From: Okeania sp. KiyG1
Lineage (GTDB): Bacteria > Cyanobacteriota > Cyanobacteriia > Cyanobacteriales > Microcoleaceae
NCBI RefSeq assembly: GCF_014132355.1
Contig: NZ_BLZO01000187.1
Span: forward strand, 1-64,000
Reading direction: 5' to 3'
DNA length: 64,000 nt
The notes beneath the pieces were generated by a model. The model was not told the origin of the DNA. It searched no databases and was given only the letters and a program-made list of their open reading frames with translations. Positions 3,152 to 47,890 of the stretch are shown in pieces (the first letter of the stretch is position 1; the number at the start of each line of letters is the position of its first letter). The translations under genes and the position numbers were made by a program.

Positions 3152-3667
3152 ATGACAGATAATATATCATCTCAAAGAACCGATAAATCTGATGGGACTA
3201 ACTTCCAGAGCGCCGAATCCCAGGAAAATCCTCGACAGGACGATATTGACCAAGATATTTGTCAGGAATCTCTTGGTGTTTGTATCCAATCTCTGGGACT
3301 AAATAAAATTCAGCGACATATTTTTATTTGTGCTGACCAAACAAAGCCTAAATGTTGCTCGACAGAGGCTGGTTTAGAGGCATGGAATTATCTCAAAAAA
3401 CGGCTCCAAGAGTTAAAAATAGACCGAGTTAACCCTGATTTACCTGGCTGTATATTTCGTACTAAAGCTAACTGTTTACGAGTTTGTTGTCAAGGTCCAA
3501 TCATGGTTGTTTATCCTGAAGGAGTATGGTACCATTCCGCAACTCCTCCTGTAATTGAAAGAATTATTCAAGAGCATATAATGGGGAATCGAGTTGTAGA
3601 GGAATATGTTTTTCTCACTCATCCTTTGCCGGAATCAATGATTATTTCATCAAATAGCCTTAGTTGA
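3152..3667 (+). CDS. (2Fe-2S) thioredoxin-like ferredoxin domain protein
   Basis: The 171-residue product has a charged, probably disordered first 55 residues and then a thioredoxin-fold ferredoxin domain. The domain shows the pattern expected for this family: [13 protein letters not shown] near residues 69-81 and [21 protein letters not shown] near residues 110-130, giving cysteine ligands in the order C-x(8-12)-C and C-x3-C. Such proteins carry a [2Fe-2S] cluster and are thought to act in electron transfer or as cluster-bearing partners; the actual partner is unknown here. The gene stands alone between groESL and a response regulator. Extra cysteines adjoin each ligand position, so exact ligand choice cannot be settled from sequence. 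Confidence 0.78.
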
Positions 3668-3887
3668 TTCATTAACTGATACTCATAAATTGTGGACATT
3701 TACTTGACTGGGAAACTCAAAAGTTCAAAGTTAACAATTAGTAACTAATAGTTATCAATATAAATTCTGATAACATTAGTAACCAATACTGTCAAATTTT
3801 CATATATTATTAAAAGTAGTGGAAGTTATTTTTCACAATACAAAACTATTATCTAGTTATACTTATATATCTATATCTAACTAAATA

Positions 3888-5035: not shown

Positions 5036-6248
5036 GTATAATTACTCAAGAATCCATCGGGGTGTAAATTTTTAATCTTTAATATAATTTGTATATTTGA
5101 GGGCTGTAATTTTGTACTGCCCCGGTTTTTCTATATTCCAAATTTTATATACATAGTTTTTATTAAGTCAATTGTTTTTGATTTGACTGAATTATTAGAA
5201 GATTGGATGAATCCAATCTTCAAAGTATGGCCTTAATGAAAAATTATTGTCTGATATTGAAGATATGGAAGGGGATCGATTAATTTAATAAGCAGAAAAA
5301 GTATTTTTTACAGAAAAAGACTAAAATAGATAGTATATAACTACTAAAATTATTAAAATTATGAGAAGAGAAAAATATTATCGATTTACGATATAAAGGT
5401 AATTTTTTGCAGTTTAAATCTGAAATATGTAAGTAACAATGTTAGTTTATCTAAATTAAAAATAATGTAAGCATTTCCTGCGGAATACTGCCCTTGCCAG
5501 TCATCAGCTATTAGCTAGCCTCATAAGGTCGGAACTGCGGACTTCAGCAATTAATTTTGAGGAATTTCAATAATTGATAATTGATAATTACCTCTTCCTT
5601 TTAGGGAGAGAATTGAATAAAAGGAAAATTCATTCATTGTTTCTCCTTTAAAGGAGAGGATTTTTACCTTAATTATTCGGTAAAAGCAACTTTTGAAATT
5701 GAGAAAGAATAAAAAGTTACTGCCAAAGTCCTCTTCCCAAACCTGAGAAGTAATTATCTTTTTTTGCGGGTTTAATACCCCACCGTCTAAACGGTGCTTA
5801 AAATTGCTTGGGGTTATAAGACACGAAGTGGCGTGTCGAAGACTATCTATAAGGTAAGCATTTCCTGCGGAATGCTGCCCTTGCCAGCCGTCAGCTAGGC
5901 TCATAAGGTCCTAACTGCAGACTTCAGCGCTTCCCTGCGGGATGTGCTTGCATTCAGCTATTGCTTTTAGTTTTAGATAAAAGCTTTACTAATTGAGGTA
6001 GGATTAAATCTTACTTATAAAAGCTGGCTTTAAATCCTATATTCATTTAAACCCCCTCCTTTTACTGAGAGCTGACAGCTAATAGCTGAATGCTTACTCC
6101 ATAAGTAATTTTCCCTTCTGCCTTCTGCTTTCTTCAATAATTACTAATAGCTGAACGCTTACAAAATAATTGCATTGATGATAGGAATATTACTAAAGTA
6201 ATAGATTTAGACTGAATTATCTAAAATCAATATTAAATTTAAGTTTCT
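5036..6248. repeat. Gene-free, repeat-filled stretch
   Basis: No gene is supported; a 117-codon open frame on the minus strand at 5551-5904 consists only of repeats. Contents: an R2 block at about 5570-5690 (GATAATT heptamers, CCTTTAAAGGAGAGG, TTATTCGGTAA); a repeat with GCGGGTTTAATACCCC and a GACACG...CGTGTC hairpin at about 5765-5855, also seen at 28200 and 28660; and two copies of a GCATTTCCTGCGGAATGCTGC-type repeat at 5469 and 5855, also at 18966, 26611 and 58445. Confidence 0.6.
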
Positions 6249-39497: not shown

Positions 39498-39818
39498 CTA
39501 TTCACTGCTCAAAATGTAGTTCCCAATAATTATTTTCAATTCAACAGGAGCTTCAAGAGCGATGTTGCATCCGCAACGCTCCGCGAACGCCGCCCCCATA
39601 TCTGGACGAACCACCCACCACCAAACTAATTTTTCCAAATAGCTTGGGGGTTCATCATTCGGACACCACTCAATAAAACCATCATTGACACCAACCATAT
39701 TAGGACAAAAGTCATTCGCTATAGCAACGCGATCGTCAAGCTTCTCAAATTGTACAATATCTTGCCAAGCAACCTCATTAGGAATTGAGTTGAAAATTGT
39801 TTGTACGTCTAAAGTCAA
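39498..39818 (-). CDS. Hypothetical protein
   Basis: The 106-residue product reads well as a folded protein in its first two thirds (MTLDVQTIFNSIPNEVAWQD ... WCPNDEPPSYLEKLVWWWVV) but the segment near residues 78-88 (AERCGCNIAL) is encoded by a copy of the GCGGAGCGTTGCGGATGC-type repeat, so the gene has taken up or been built around a repeat. I do not recognise the family. It lies next to the cobS fragment and hicA; a shared transcript is possible but unproven. Confidence 0.45.
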   Translation of the reverse strand: MTLDVQTIFNSIPNEVAWQDIVQFEKLDDRVAIANDFCPNMVGVNDGFIEWCPNDEPPSYLEKLVWWWVVRPDMGAAFAERCGCNIALEAPVELKIIIGNYILSSE

Positions 39819-39833
39819 AATTATATCCTCTTA

Positions 39834-39961
39834 CTATTCCAAAGTAACCAAAACACACAATAATAATACTTCTGTCCATTTAACCACAGCACCATAAGTA
39901 TCGCCAGTATGACCGCCCAAACAATGGTTAAAGCAAGTATCTGTCAATAGAGCGATCGCTA
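39834..39961 (-). pseudogene. Duplicated 3' end of cobS
   Basis: About 127 bases match 47120-47246 (the last 42 codons of cobS) with about 8 differences. The translation still reads [20 protein letters not shown], but nothing upstream is cobS; the fragment begins 3 bases after the hicA stop codon. It is a segmental duplication, not a gene. Confidence 0.88.
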
Positions 39962-39963
39962 CT

Positions 39964-40200
39964 TCATTCATCAACCTCAAATAAAGAGCGAGGTAAACCT
40001 GACTGACGAATAATAGCTTGCAAAGTTCCAACCCTTAATTCCTTGTAGTTAGGAACCGGAATAGTAACAGTTGAATCATCAGTTCGCAACTGCATCATAA
40101 TATGGCTACCACGCACTCTCACTTCTACAAAACCGCCTTCCTCCAAAATTTTACAAACTTCTTTTGCTGACAAAACCCTTAATATCAAATCCGGTAGCAT
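39964..40200 (-). CDS. hicA: HicA-family toxin (mRNA interferase)
   Basis: The 78-residue product ([20 protein letters not shown] ...) is a HicA toxin: the key histidine is in [10 protein letters not shown] near residue 33, followed by [20 protein letters not shown] and [10 protein letters not shown]. It cleaves mRNA unless bound by HicB. Its start codon and first five residues lie inside a T3 MITE (40183-40301). Without the element the frame would start at the TTG in the hicB stop region and read [12 protein letters not shown], an ordinary HicA start overlapping hicB. The present ATG has no clear ribosome site, so translation may be weak. The cobS fragment starts right after its stop. Confidence 0.85.
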
Positions 40201-40301
40201 CGGTATAAATTAGATGGGGAGATGGGGAGATGGGGAGATGGGGGGATGGGGGATGGTTGAAGATGGAACATTTTTTTATACCGAATTAAACGGATTTGAT
40301 A
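40183..40301. mobile_element. MITE, T3 family, inserted between hicB and hicA
   Basis: Ends TATCAAATCCGG and CCG...GGATTTGATA with TAA on both sides (40180-40182 and 40302-40304). The 119-bp element carries GGGGAGAT octamers. It separates hicB from hicA and supplies the hicA start codon. Confidence 0.85.
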
Positions 40302-40305
40302 TAAC

Positions 40306-40533
40306 TTACCCAACTTTGACCTCCACACGCTCCACAAGAACTTCGTTATTGAAGCGACGCTCAATCTCTGAAGCATCAGCAGTCTCAAAAAAAAGTTCCA
40401 ACGCTTCAATCAAATTAGACCGCGCTTCTTCTATCGTATCGCCTTGACTGGCAATATCCAGTTCCGGACACAAAGATACATATCCATCATCCTCTCGCTC
40501 AATAATAACTGTTAGTTGTTTGGTTTGTGTCAT
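40306..40533 (-). CDS. hicB: HicB-family antitoxin
   Basis: The 75-residue product starts MTQTKQLTVIIEREDDGYVS and has the typical HicB fold motif GYVSLCPELDIASQGDTIEE-ARSNLIEALELFFE, a partly degraded RNase-H fold that binds HicA. It lacks the DNA-binding domain of longer HicB proteins. It lies upstream of hicA on the minus strand, the inverse of the usual hicA-hicB order but known for this antitoxin-first type. Only a 119-bp MITE plus TAA duplication separates it from hicA. Pairing of antitoxin and toxin synthesis through overlap is therefore probably lost. Confidence 0.88.
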   Translation of the reverse strand: MTQTKQLTVIIEREDDGYVSLCPELDIASQGDTIEEARSNLIEALELFFETADASEIERRFNNEVLVERVEVKVG

Positions 40534-40791
40534 TTTCTTGTCTTTAAAAAGCCTTTGATTTTTCTCTCTCTAGTTTAATAGTTTTTTTTCAGGCTGTGAT
40601 AACTTTACTTAGGGACTCATAGCGATCGCCCTGTAGGGGTAGGGGGCGAACGGCCGTTCGCTTACATCCAAAAGTGAGGGCGAATGCCATTTGCTAACGC
40701 AAAGCTCCGCTAACGCCCCTACATATGGCCTTTTAAAGGTTAATTTGCGTAAGTCCTGATTTAATTATTATACCACTTTTGTTAGAGAATT
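40534..40791. repeat. C5-type MITE remnant
   Basis: The right end GCGTAAGTCCTGA at about 40747-40759 and the internal GAATGCCATTTGC...CGCCCCTAC part match C5 copies; the left end is degraded. No gene. Confidence 0.5.
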
Positions 40792-43700
40792 CTACATTAT
40801 TTCTTTCAATTCTAACTGAACTTGTTCATATTCCACATACATTTTATCTAGTAGCTGCAATGCTCCTTCAGTCATTTTTGCTCGACCTAAGATTTCCATT
40901 TCTCTGCAAATTTCAGCTAAATTGTATGCTCCGATGCTACCACAACTTCCATTTAAGGTATGAGCTTGTAATGTCATTTTTACTACATCTTTTTCCTGAA
41001 TCGCAGTTGCAATATTTGCTAATTGTTTAGAGCTTTCCTCTAAAAAAATATTACCCATATTCTCAATAAAATCATTTGCATTTTCCCCAAACAGTTCTCG
41101 CAATCTGTCTAAAGCATCTCGGTCAATTGCAGGCTTAGCTGATTCTGAATTAGTTTTGCTAGAAATTTCACTCTCAAAATCTTGATGTTTAACTCCCTCC
41201 GACAGTTGCTCAGAATCTCCATTTGCATCTGATATTTTGGAAGATGATTTAATTAATTGTTCATCCAAATCTTGAGATGATATTAGCTCTGCTTCTGCAA
41301 AAGTTTGAACTGGTAATAGTTGCTCTATGGATTCACACTTAAGTAATCCTTGAATCAACTCTTCCACTCGAATTGGCTTACTAATGTAATCATCCATACC
41401 AGCTTCTAGACACATTTCGCGATCGCCTTGCATGGCATTCGCTGTCATCGCAATAATCCGAGGTCGTTTGGTAGCATCCCTTTCCGTAACTATCCGTTTT
41501 GTGGCTGTTAAACCATCCATTTCTGGCATATGGACATCCATGAAAATCACATCATAGGGCTGACGATCTATAGCCTCAATCACTTCTATACCATTGCTTA
41601 CCACATCAGCATAATATCCCATCTTTTCCAGCAATTGTACTGCCAACTGTTGATTCACTATATTATCTTCTGCCAACAGTATTCTCAAAGGCAAACGAGC
41701 AGCCATTTCTGGATCGATTTCCAACTTTTGGGGAGGACGAGATTGCTTGACTTTAATTGGCTGTCCACCGAAAACTTTGAGCAAAGTATTGCAAAGTTCA
41801 GATTGCTTAATAGGTTTATTCAAGAGAGCAGCAAATTCACTTTCAAATTCGTCTAAATTATCTTCGAGGTATGCGATCGAAGTTAACATCACTAAAGGCA
41901 AATCGCTATATCGAGGATATGTATGAATTTCTTGGGCTAAAGTGACACCATCCATTTCAGGCATTTGCATATCCAGAATAGCCAGATCGAATTCTTTTTG
42001 GTTATCTAATTCCTGAAGTGCTTCCTTTCCTGAAGCTACTACCCTGGGATATATTCCCCAAGATTCCATTTGGAATTTGAGAATTTTACGATTGGTGGCA
42101 TTATCGTCAACAACCAGAACCTTCTTATCCTTGAGTAGAGATTCTGTATTGAACAAACGTTGATTAGTATCCGAGTCAAGGACTTCAGCTTTGATGGTAA
42201 AGTAGAAGGTTGAACCCTCTCCCACTTGACTCTCAACCCACATTCGACCTCCCATCACTTCACTGAGACGTTTAGAGATAGCTAAACCTAAGCCAGTGCC
42301 ACCATATTGACGTGAGGTAGATGAGTCCACCTGACTGAATGACTTGAATAATCGATCCTTTTTATCTTCAGGAATCCCGATTCCTGTGTCTTTGACAGCA
42401 AAACAAATTTCTGTCTGGGTATCATCAAGAGATTTAGAAGTGATGGAAACTACAACTTCCCCCTCATGGGTAAACTTAATAGCATTTCCCAATAAATTTA
42501 CTAAAATTTGTCGTACTCTGGTAACATCCCCAAGTATAGTATAAGGGGTCTGCACATCAATCATGTAAGCCAATTCTAAATTTTTATCTGCTGCTTTCGG
42601 AGCCAATAGATCCAAAGCATCTTCTACACAAATATGAATCTCAAATGGCTGCTTCTCTAACTCTAGGTTGCCAGATTCAACTTTGGAAAAGTCTAGAATA
42701 TCGTTGATAATTGTTAGCAGTGAGTTACCACAGTTGCGAATGGTTTCGACAAAATTGCGTTGCTTTTCCTCTAGAGGGGTATCCAATAACAATCCCGTCA
42801 TACCAATCACCCCATTCATTGGTGTCCGAATTTCATGGCTCATTGTGGCTAAAAATTCCCCTTTCGCTTTCATGGCAACCAGAGCTTGGTCTCGGGTTTG
42901 TTTTAATTCTTCTGCTACTTCCTGACGTTCTATTTCTCCACTCACCCACTGAGACATCAGTTTCAATAGCTCTTGATTGACTCCTGAAAACGGTTTTGAC
43001 TGAGAGCTAAGACTAGAGAAACTCAGAGTTCCATAGACTTCGCCATTACAAATTACCCGGATTCCCATGTATGACTTTAATCCAAATGTAGTGTGGCAGA
43101 GATGATTCTTCCATTTAGAGGTATTCGCTGATTCAATACAAACTACATCTTTGCTTTGCATGGTTTCTTCGCAGTAGACTTGTTTTAGTTCAAAAACTGC
43201 TCCTTTAATCGTAGCTTTACTAGGAAGTTGGGCTGCTATAACTTCATAGCGATCGCCTTGTATATGGGAGAGAATCCCAATTTCCATATTGAAATATTTT
43301 CGCCCCATAGCTAGTAATCCTTGTAACCGTTGCTCAAAACTGCGGCCACGAGCTGAAGTAATTTTGTATAGAGCTTGGATAGTTTCTTTACTTTCCTGAA
43401 GTTCTTGAACTCTTTGAGCCATTTGAATCGCGATTGTCAAATGCCCTGCAATTTCGTCCATGAGTTCTAAGTCATTATCTTGCCAAGTTCGAGGAGCACG
43501 ACACTGATGAACTATTAATAAACCCCAAAGTTTAGTGGCGGTAGCTGCAACTTTACCATTATGATGTTTGAGATTAGCATCTTGAGCTCGAGCGGAAAAA
43601 ATTGGCAAAACTATACTGGCTTTAACTTCAAGCTGCTCCAATAGTTGGCGACGACATTCTGTTAAGTTCGCAGTTTGAATATCATTCATACTCCAATGAT

Positions 43701-46065
43701 AACCATTATGATAACGATTTATTTCACTACTTTGGAAACATTCATCTTGAATACCTTGATGTAAACTAGATACCCATTCTTCCCCCACAGATTCAGCTAC
43801 GACTGTACCATTCATGTCCGCAGAAAATTGGTAAACCACGACGCGATCGCTATCCAACAAGGAGCGAACTTCTGTCACTGTTGTTTCTAGAATTGTTTGT
43901 AAATTTAAGGAAGACCTAATCTGATTAGTAATCTTTGCCACGAGTTGTTCTCGCTTAAATTGTATATTTAGTTTGCGAGATTTTTCTCGTTGTTGTTCTA
44001 ACTCATTCTCTTTGACTTTTTGAATTGTTTCTTTACTTTCCTGAAGTTCTTGAACTTGTTGAGCCATTTGAATCGCCACTGTCAAATGTTCGGCAATTCT
44101 GTCAATTAATTCTAAGTCAGTTTGTCGCCAGCTTCGAGGAGCGTAACACTGATGAACTATTAATAAACCCCACAGTTGATTGGCTGGATATGTGTTGTTT
44201 TCAAGCTTTGAGTTAATGTATTGAATTTGAAGGCTAAAAATTGGTACAACTAGATTAGCTTTTACTTCAAACCGCTCTAGCAGTTGGCGATGACATTCGG
44301 TTAAATTTGCTGTTTTAATATCGTTGACGCTCCAACGATAACCATTATCATAACGAGTGACTTCTCCATTTTGGAAACAGGTGTCGTGAATCTCTTGATG
44401 TAAAGTAGGTGTCCATTCTTTACCCACAGATTCAGCCACAACTGTACCATTCATATCCGCAGAAAATTTATAAACAACGACGCGATCGCCATCCAACAAG
44501 GTGCGAACTTCTGTCACTGTTGTTTCTAGAATTGTTTGTAAATCTAAGGAAGACCGAATCTGATTAGCAATCTTGGCTAAGAGTTGTTCTCGCTTAAATT
44601 GTATATTTAGTTCGCGAGATTTTTCTCGTTGTTGTTCTAGCTCACGCTCTTTGACTTGTTGAACTGTTTCTTTACTTTCCTGAAGTTCTTGAACTTGTTC
44701 AGCCATTTGAATCGCGATCGTGAAATGTTCGGCAATTCTGTCAATTAATTCTAGGTCACTGTCTTGCCAGTTTCGAGGAGCTTGACACTGATGAACTATT
44801 AATAAACCCCAAAGTTCACCAGAAAGATCGGGTTCTGCATTTTTTTCCAGCTTTGAGTTAATGTATTGCCTATGAAAGCAAATAATTGGTACAACTAGAT
44901 TAGCTTTTACTTCAAACCGCTCTAGCAGTTGGCGATGACATTCGGTTAAATTTGCTGTTTGAATATCGTTGACACTCCAACGATGACCATTATCATAACG
45001 AGTGACTTCTCCATTTTGGAAACAGGTGTCGTGAATCTCTTGATGTAAAGTAGGTGTCCATTCTTTACCCACAGATTCAGCCACAACTGTACCACTCTTG
45101 TCAGCAGCAAATTGATAAACAACCACGCGATCGCCATGTAACAAGGTGCGAACTTCTGTCACTGTTGTTTCTAAAATTGTTTGTAAATCTAAGGAAGACC
45201 GAATTTGATCGATAATCTTGGCTAAGAGTTGTTCTCGCTTAACTTGTATATCGAGTTTGCTAGCTTTTTCTCGTTGTTGTTCTAACTCACGCTCTTTGAC
45301 TTGTTCAATTGTTTCTTTGCTTTCTTGAAGTTCTCGAACTTGTTGAGCCATTTGAATCGTGACTGTCAAATTTTCGGCAATTCTGTCAATTAATTTGAAG
45401 TCACTGTCTTGCCAGTTTCGGGGAGCGCGACACTGATGAACTATTAATAAACCCCAAAGTTGATTAGCTGGATATATGTTGTTTTCAAGCTTTGAGTTAA
45501 TGTATTTACTTTGAACGCTAAAAATTGGTACAACTAGATTGGCTTTTACTTCAAACCGCTCTAGTAGTTGGCGATGACATTCGGTTAAATTTGCTGTTTG
45601 AATATCGTTTACACTCCAACGATGACCATTATGATAACGAATTACTTCACCACTTTGAAAACAGGTATCTTGAATTTCTTGATGTAAACTAGCTGTCCAT
45701 TCTTTCCCCACAGATTCAGCTACAACTGTACCACTCTTGTCCGCAGAAAATTGATAAACAATGACGCGATCGCCATCTAACAAGGAGCGAACTTCTGTCA
45801 CTGTTGTTTCTAGAATTGTTTGTAAATCTAAGGAAGACCGAATTTGATTAATAATTTTTGCCAGAAGTTGTTCCCGTTTAACTTCAATGTCAAGTTGACG
45901 AGTTGTTTCTTGCTGTTTTTCTAGTTCTCTATCTTGAATGCGTTTAATTGTATTAATAAATCTGTAAGCAGTTATTAATACTGTAGAAATTACGAATGCT
46001 GCAATCAAAATAGTAATTAGAAACCATTTATTTTGTATTAAAATAGAAAGATATGGTAAAGTCAT
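40792..46065 (-). CDS. Multi-GAF hybrid histidine kinase, cyanobacteriochrome-like
   Basis: The 1757-residue product has an N-terminal membrane span (residues 14-34), four near-identical GAF modules with coiled-coil linkers (about 65-245, 278-460, 493-675, 706-885), a fifth divergent GAF (895-1045), kinase core with [13 protein letters not shown] (His 1077), two receiver domains ([10 protein letters not shown] and [10 protein letters not shown]; phospho-Asp in [10 protein letters not shown] and [11 protein letters not shown]) and a C-terminal HPt domain ([14 protein letters not shown]). Each of the four GAFs carries D-x-C-F (Cys 135, 348, 563, 776) and a Cys-His site in [20 protein letters not shown] (Cys 163, 376, 591; Cys-Arg at 804), the two features of DXCF cyanobacteriochromes. 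Bilin binding is inference. The start codon overlaps a TTATCAG repeat end, so the native N-terminus is uncertain. Confidence 0.88.
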
Positions 46066-46497: not shown

Positions 46498-46722
46498 TGG
46501 ATTGTTTCACCTAAAATAGTGCATTAGCTTTTTCGTCACCCCATCCCCCCAAATTCCCCTCCCAGGAGGGGTTAGGGGTGGGTTCCCCTCCCAGGAGGGG
46601 TTAGGGGTGGGTTCCCCTCCCAGGAGGGGTTAGGGGTGGGTTCCCCTCCCAGGAGGGGTTAGGGGTGGGTTCCCATCACCCCATTTTCTAATGCAACATT
46701 TAAGATGAAACAGTCCAGTAGT
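46498..46722. repeat. Inverted-repeat element with a 34-bp tandem core
   Basis: The outer parts TAGTGGATTGTTTCACC and ATGAAACAGTCCAGTA are inverted. Inside, a unit of about 31-34 bases (TTCCCCTCCCAGGAGGGGTT ... GGGTGGG) is repeated four times (46553-46680). Similar outer ends occur at 38539-38685. No gene up to 46857. Confidence 0.55.
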
Positions 46723-47065: not shown

Positions 47066-47119
47066 CAAAAACTTTTTGTTCGCCTATTATCAAAACATGA
47101 TATAATTGATAACCGATCG

Positions 47120-47890
47120 CTATTCCAAAGTAACCAAAACACACAATAATAATGCTTCCGTCCATTCAACCACAGCACCATAAGTATCGCCAGTATGACC
47201 GCCCAAACAACGGTTAAACCAAGCACCTGTCAACAGAGCGATCGCTATTCCTCCTATTGCCATCCCAGAAGCTACTAACCAACTTTCAGGGTTTAATAAA
47301 ATTTGGATTCCACTCAGACTCAGTAATAAAAGTAGACTTTGGATAAAATCCCAAATAGAATATTTTGCCTCCTTGTGAAATGCTCCTTTTCCAGTAGGTT
47401 TGAGATAGGGGTAACGAGCGATCGCTACTAACTGACCCCATCTCCCCCAACCTGCGACTCCCATTAATATTAAAAAGCGGTCACTATCTAAATCTGTTAA
47501 AGCAGTAATTTTCAGCAACAATAGAGCGATCGCTGCCATTGCTCCAAAAGCTCCTGTAGCACTATCACTCATTACTTCCAATCTTCGTTTTTGGTCTGGC
47601 ACTGCCAACCCATCAGCAGTATCCATCACCCCATCCAAGTGTAAACCACCAGTTAAAACAATTCCAGATATAATCGCTACAGCAGACCTAGTGAGAATAG
47701 GCATTCCTAAAATTTGTAACCCAAGATCTATTAGCCCAAGGATACCACCCACTATTAATCCTATCAAAGGAGCAAAACGAGCAATACCATTAAAATCCAA
47801 GTTCCAAGTATGGGGAATTGGTAAACAGGTATAAAATGCAATTCCAGCACAGAGCTTTATTAGAGTTTTCCTAGTTACTTGGAGCAACAT
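47120..47890 (-). CDS. cobS: Adenosylcobinamide-GDP ribazoletransferase (cobalamin synthase)
   Basis: The 256-residue membrane enzyme joins adenosylcobinamide-GDP with alpha-ribazole (phosphate) in the last step of (pseudo)cobalamin assembly. It shows [18 protein letters not shown] near residue 78 and [15 protein letters not shown] near residue 104, the usual metal and substrate sites, and [20 protein letters not shown] near residue 227, with hydrophobic spans throughout. Length is normal. The end of this gene (42 codons) is duplicated at 39834-39961. The gene is followed by an R8 MITE and preceded by AT-rich DNA without a cobalamin riboswitch that I can see. Confidence 0.95.

Follow-up and report, generated by a model that had tools for sequence, protein, structure and literature searches.

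Within the window, the whole 64,000-nucleotide stretch of DNA that we analysed, a MITE has inserted exactly where translation of the toxin gene of a hicBA pair would have been coupled to that of its antitoxin gene. Judged by alignment with relatives, hicA originally began at a TTG overlapping the hicB stop, and thus the element lies inside ancestral hicA, after codon 3, and not in an intergenic gap. The old TTG and its Shine-Dalgarno (SD)-like site are intact after the insertion, and the present toxin frame opens on an ATG within the element. We favour, tentatively, the reading that HicA is still made by a reduced relay that depends on translation of hicB, in which case the pair would be weakened and not uncoupled. 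The window lies on a 228-kb contig (C187) of a host genome (G000) of 10.98 Mb in 198 contigs.

Both genes are read on the reverse strand. The short antitoxin gene hicB (40306..40533, 75 codons) was assigned from its ORF and from the alignment of relatives, 16 of which align with the window HicB at 64-84% identity, and it is linked to hicA in 25 relatives. Its Pfam scores are under the cut-offs (UPF0150, 19.8 against 27.3; HicB_lk_antitox, 18.0 against 27), and a PHD_like antitoxin model matches 8 of 17 HicB members weakly (window HicB, 17.8 bits against 27), at residues 6-47, where the HicB-type models match too. No hit in the Pfam scan of this 75-residue protein reached its cut-off, and apart from the HicB-type match the scan listed no DNA-binding domain. 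The toxin gene hicA as it stands (39964..40200, 78 codons) is an ORF of which residues 7-78 match relatives; residues 12-69 align with profile positions 1-58 of Pfam HicA_toxin (PF07927) at 63.1 bits, against a cut-off of 27, and three solved chains named HicA resemble the protein (E 0.0008-0.002). Neither HicA nor HicB had a match in NCBIfam or PADLOC.

Class 2 hicBA systems are described, in extracts of PMC10865869, as compact and antitoxin first, with a HicB of 63-103 codons that has no recognised DNA-binding domain, and as awaiting experimental analysis; the same extracts have hicA and hicB of classes 1 and 2 mostly closely linked or overlapping, suggesting translational coupling. In the window hicB comes first, its 75 codons fall in the class range (63-103), and it has no recognisable DNA-binding domain, and we classify the locus accordingly, as class 2 hicBA with a MITE inserted. 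The usual closeness or overlap of the genes is missing, the hicB stop and the hicA ATG being 105 nt apart here owing to the MITE, but this does not exclude the pair from class 2, since the extracts qualify that closeness with 'in most instances' (PMC10865869).

The MITE (40183..40301, reverse strand) runs from 40301 to 40183, exactly 119 bp, with the ends TATCAAATCCG...CGGATTTGATA; written out from both ends it reads TATCAAATCCGTTTAATTCGGTATAAA ... TTTATACCGATGCTACCGGATTTGATA. It has perfect outer inverted repeats of 11 bp and inner ones of 10 bp, and it contains an 8-bp minisatellite (40212..40256, forward strand, AGATGGGG x 5.8). TTA (TAA on the plus strand) stands on both flanks, at 40304-40302 (40302..40304), where G152 and G068 have the single copy, and at 40182-40180 (40180..40182), where it is now codon 7 of hicA. 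Folded alone, the MITE forms a predicted hairpin of -22.2 kcal/mol (z = -6.7); for a 191-nt region comprising the MITE plus flanking sequence, the fold is no more stable than that of shuffled sequences (z = +1.1). The pattern is more than chance, because the end pattern, with up to two mismatches, matches the genome 132 times (both kinds of end fit) against 0 for the reversed control, 32 of 33 paired copies have identical duplications, and the hairpin has this low z. The right-end pattern, also with up to two mismatches, gave 167 genome matches, again with 0 for the reversed control; the sets behind the counts of 132 and 167 overlap. For the paired copies, 47 loci were taken (the 30 best matches and 17 chosen), from which a script paired 33 copies of 119 to 380 bp, repeats and copies without both ends fitting the patterns within 450 bases being left out. 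The identical 3-bp duplication found in 32 of these 33 is always TTA, TCA, TGA or TAA (TNA). The insertion with target duplication that the first-pass annotation proposed is supported.

The right-end pattern was present in 25 of the 60 genomes searched, the host's own included, and all 25 are in the host's family (25 of 37 there, 0 of 23 outside it); the five other genomes of the genus have 100-203 right ends each. The element is short, with inverted terminal repeats, a target-site duplication, multiple dispersed copies and no transposase, as expected of a MITE. We conclude from these patterns that the 119-bp MITE is a non-autonomous member of a TNA-duplicating family that is abundant throughout the genus. 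Among the IS5-type transposases searched for in the genome (NF033580, PF13340), as sources of an autonomous partner, none has both MITE-like ends. One IS5-type transposase gene (L112, G000:C121, locus positions ~1246-2384) has TATCAAATCC at one end, beside TCA, and this element is a possible relative of the autonomous partner, a candidate with one matching end.

The insertion site is empty in relatives. When the window was compared by blastn with nine relative loci, the two flanks abutted within a few bases in six of them (G002, G152, G068, G181, G019, G014); among the other three, G003 and G005 have no hicA and G017 has no 5' half of hicA. Element-free relatives with a different hicA start and no match to the rebuilt junction are what the first-pass annotation had named as telling against it, and the relatives are otherwise: in G152 and G068 the natural sequence GTTGGGTAAG-TTAAGGGTTTT, with no element and a single TTA, is letter for letter the junction rebuilt by taking out the element and one TTA. 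This comparison used the natural sequences of the relatives, with no flanks joined artificially. Since G002, which belongs to the same genus as the host, carries 107 right ends elsewhere in its genome, its empty site at hicBA is not due to absence of the family. The element had also been placed between hicB and hicA, which holds for the present ORFs, as they flank the MITE, but strictly it is inside the 5' end of ancestral hicA.

That ancestral hicA began at the TTG at 40311..40313 (reverse strand), overlapping the hicB stop (TTGGGTAA), is our conclusion from the aligned relatives, 22 of 25 of which have an in-frame TTG 9 nt before the first conserved hicA codon that overlaps the hicB stop in the same way (TTGGGTAA). 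The remaining three have the TTG out of frame (L036, L041) or a TTA (L053). Upstream of the in-frame TTG, the hicA frame meets a stop before any other ATG, GTG or TTG in 19 of the 22; at least one such codon is present in L035, L055 and L056. These relatives come from a HicA search that matched 128 of 197 genomes, most of them distantly, of which the loci of the best 29 relatives were used and four were dropped: L057, L058 and L060 (match from residue 28 on) and L059 (distant HicA, 38%). The hicB codon that gives the TT of this TTG has T as its third base in 25 of 25 cases, compared to 177 of 343 other V/I/L codons (GTN, ATN, CTN) of these genes, a count over related sequences and thus no independent-sample test. 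Ahead of the start, in the 3' end of hicB, is a Shine-Dalgarno-like GGAGGT (40319..40324, reverse strand) with an anti-SD pairing at the old TTG of -10.0 kcal/mol in the window (median of the 25 relatives, -7.1; weakest, -4.0). The same TTG is found in 11 of 15 named loci, including four from Chloroflexi (two titled Anaerolineae) and two from Deltaproteobacteria, although three of the 11 repeat G152, G002 and G068. Because the TTG start overlaps the hicB stop, the ancestral pair appears laid out for translational coupling, and here the first-pass annotation is borne out. Extracts of PMC6728339 report ample SD use for reinitiation at overlapping gene pairs in cyanobacteria, which fits the ancestral hicBA junction.

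The insertion changed this junction in several ways. The MITE and its duplication added 122 nt, which puts the old start out of frame with hicA: codons 1 to 3 of the gene have dropped out of its reading frame, and MLPDLI replaces MGK ahead of LRVLSAKEV. The present first ATG of the hicA ORF (40198..40200, reverse strand) is within the right end of the MITE, as had been noted from the sequence at the outset, 113 nt downstream of the old TTG, and the MITE thereby contributes six new N-terminal codons. A second possible hicA start is a TTG at 40186..40188. From the ancestral TTG, a leader ORF of 42 codons (40185..40313, reverse strand) now runs through the MITE to a TGA at 40187-40185, which is also the end of the ORF 40185-40409; this TGA falls 13 nt beyond the new ATG and shares bases with the in-frame TTG at 40188 (TTGA). 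Calculated SD pairing is absent at the MITE ATG (+2.4 kcal/mol) and is -3.3 at the TTG at 40188, compared to the -10.0 of the old TTG, and in the predicted hairpin the MITE ATG borders an internal loop. Given the difference in pairing between the MITE ATG and the old TTG, as well as the place of the ATG in the hairpin, it is plausible that the insertion lowers toxin translation.

We considered whether the open leader and the in-frame ATG need a special explanation. Six passages through the hicA copy are possible (two orientations, three phases), and that of the leader alone is open to the last codon. At least one left-to-right phase is open to the last codon in 19 of 33 family copies, and we therefore rejected the open leader as a special trait of the hicA copy. 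By our own count, moreover, a single condition on orientation and codon boundary, with 1 chance in 6, is enough to give both the in-frame ATG and the open leader. With that condition and the 19 of 33 copies that have an open passage, the arrangement of leader and ATG, as far as its sequence goes, needs no selection. We also rejected a general role for the MITE as a mobile start codon: an intact outward ATG is present in 30 of 33 copies in the genome itself, where the outward ORF of the hicA copy is the longest (78 codons; next, 59), and of the 25 right ends in 30 relative loci, two have outward ORFs of at least 50 codons (73 and 54 codons).

The layout suggests how HicA might still be made. 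Ribosomes that end hicB would restart at the old TTG and translate the 42-codon leader, melting the MITE hairpin on their way; they would then stop within the new hicA start region, at the TGA at 40187-40185, and reinitiation at ATG 40200 or TTG 40188 would yield HicA at a level that is lower yet tied to hicB translation. This relay of leader, termination and reinitiation is the reading we favour, though we would put it a little short of an even chance. Against it, SD pairing is weak or absent at the new starts, and removal of the SD substantially reduced reinitiation in four of five E. coli pairs (extracts of PMC6728339). It differs from the first-pass annotation, which held that the insertion should uncouple toxin from antitoxin, a stronger claim than the sequence supports; the old start and its SD-like site are untouched, and the 42-codon ORF ends 13 nt past the new ATG, a layout that could preserve some coupling at a lower level.

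Uncoupling would result if free ribosomes started de novo at the MITE ATG at 40200, making toxin output independent of hicB translation, and this we regard as unlikely. ATG 40200 heads the longest ORF in the hicA frame, and the same extracts place cyanobacteria among the groups that use an SD for about 20% or less of de novo initiation (PMC6728339), so that the missing SD at the MITE ATG is compatible with direct initiation. However, ATG 40200 has no SD pairing (+2.4 kcal/mol) and a predicted hairpin, and ribosomes from the intact old start would cross its region. Nor does anything point to hicA being transcribed separately from within the MITE: a consensus scan gave no promoter or terminator in the element, and over 39950-40800 it gave one promoter site, inside hicA, against 1.8 expected by chance.

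A third reading, to which we give no more credence than to de novo initiation, is that the insertion all but silenced hicA as a step toward loss of the toxin, the ORF being intact because the event is recent or because a low level is harmless. Losses of this kind are found in relatives. Only two of the nine loci, G003 and G005, have the flanking genes in common with the window (90-96% identity in aligned pieces of at least 600 bases), and in both hicB is cut at ~62 codons and hicA is absent (L160, G005, 3635-3829; L161, G003, ~5380-5570); the HicA search gave no match in G005 and only a distant one in G003. At the corresponding junction, G017 is missing the 5' half of hicA, and stops or frameshifts interrupt hicA in other relatives (G181, G124, G191). 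On these comparisons, several of the lineages have lost the toxin gene or carry a broken copy. In contrast, hicA in the window keeps a complete frame that neither a stop nor a frameshift interrupts after the insertion, and its dN is low relative to dS (0.049/0.866 against G152, ~0.06; 0.075/0.746 against G002, ~0.10; 0.082/0.507 against G068, ~0.16), so that hicA still looks constrained. Counted only at codons where the other three sequences agree, and with small numbers, replacement and silent changes on the hicA branches are 3/4 for G000 and 0/4, 2/7 and 2/4 for the three others, and we see no sign of especially strong constraint on the G000 branch. Dating the insertion by dN/dS was rejected, as there are too few changes. 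The first-pass annotation had also supposed that lowered toxin would explain why the insertion is tolerated; G003 and G005, with the same flanking genes, have no hicA at all.

It is very unlikely, in our estimate, that the MITE acts as a portable translation adaptor, with its outward ATG/TTG, six open codons (MLPDLI) and open left-to-right passage turning direct coupling into a two-step relay, and with the number of its 8-bp repeats shifting the leader frame to make toxin dose variable between cells. The repeat unit is not a multiple of three, and changes in repeat number would consequently move the leader frame. An assembly error or mis-joined repeat, which a highly repeated element family in a genome of 198 contigs might invite, is scarcely credible for a 119-bp element with a matching duplication within a 228-kb contig that has both hicBA halves on either side.

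Several other features of these loci are recorded here in their own right. The shortened hicB of G003 is immediately followed by the counterpart of the window gene at 39498-39818, and in G017 (L060 / L164) AGTTATC repeats replace the first part of hicA at the hicB-hicA junction. Several relatives show a close HicB match over only the first ~60-66 residues, and in G038, G043 and G184 (L081, L086 and L087 were looked at) HicB ends early and the genome has no close HicA match; solitary short HicB copies may, from such matches, be common. G148 has three hicBA pairs of this subfamily close together (contig C66:30374-33918), and one of the hicA matches contains TAA. In the window, a 144-bp copy of the cobS 3' end lies just downstream of hicA (39818-39961), 90% identical to 47104-47247 and 7,286 bp away from it; the cobS gene itself is at 47120-47890 (CobS by Pfam), and the two 144-bp copies are separated by hicBA and a large kinase gene. 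This kinase gene, of 1,757 codons and with several GAF domains, contains a fourfold repeat with 639-645-bp spacing (43375-45818), and a 29-bp tandem repeat lies upstream of it (46554-46698).

The MITE and the hicBA pair are each of known kinds, and their combination is an unusual variant. As described in the extracts of PMC10865869, class 2 hicBA resembles this locus in having hicB first, in the size of HicB and, in the relatives here, in the hicA TTG overlapping the hicB stop; the window pair differs by the MITE itself, the 122 nt added, the ATG 113 nt past the old TTG and the six new codons. Nezha (a reference entry in PMC10969869) and a Microcystis MITE of 187 nt, which is also found inside genes (extracts of PMC11448079), are likewise short and have no transposase gene, whereas the element here has the ends TATCAAATCCG, a TNA duplication and the inner 8-bp minisatellite, a comparison with two elements that are known by description only. 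BrickBuilt of Porphyromonas gingivalis is also a MITE with a minisatellite, but is always intergenic according to extracts of PMC4596501, unlike the hicA copy, which lies inside a gene start. Rickettsia palindromic elements also contribute amino acids to host ORFs; in extracts of PMC10969869 they are in-frame insertions within ORFs, whereas the MITE here supplies a start and shifts the older frame. In termination-reinitiation at overlapping genes, stop and start are likewise close or overlapping and the SD is inside the upstream gene (extracts of PMC6728339); the relay proposed here would differ in taking two steps through a transposon-encoded leader. Among the papers listed in searches of the openly licensed PubMed Central literature, titles and abstract beginnings showed no MITE that interrupts a toxin-antitoxin pair or provides a start codon.

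Since class 2 HicB has no DNA-binding domain, we infer that coupling may be the main control of class 2 hicBA, above promoter control. An insertion that arose naturally at precisely the coupling junction and spared the old start offers a ready-made test of how important that coupling is. The locus also tests whether a transposon can place a leader ORF in a coupled pair without killing the downstream gene.
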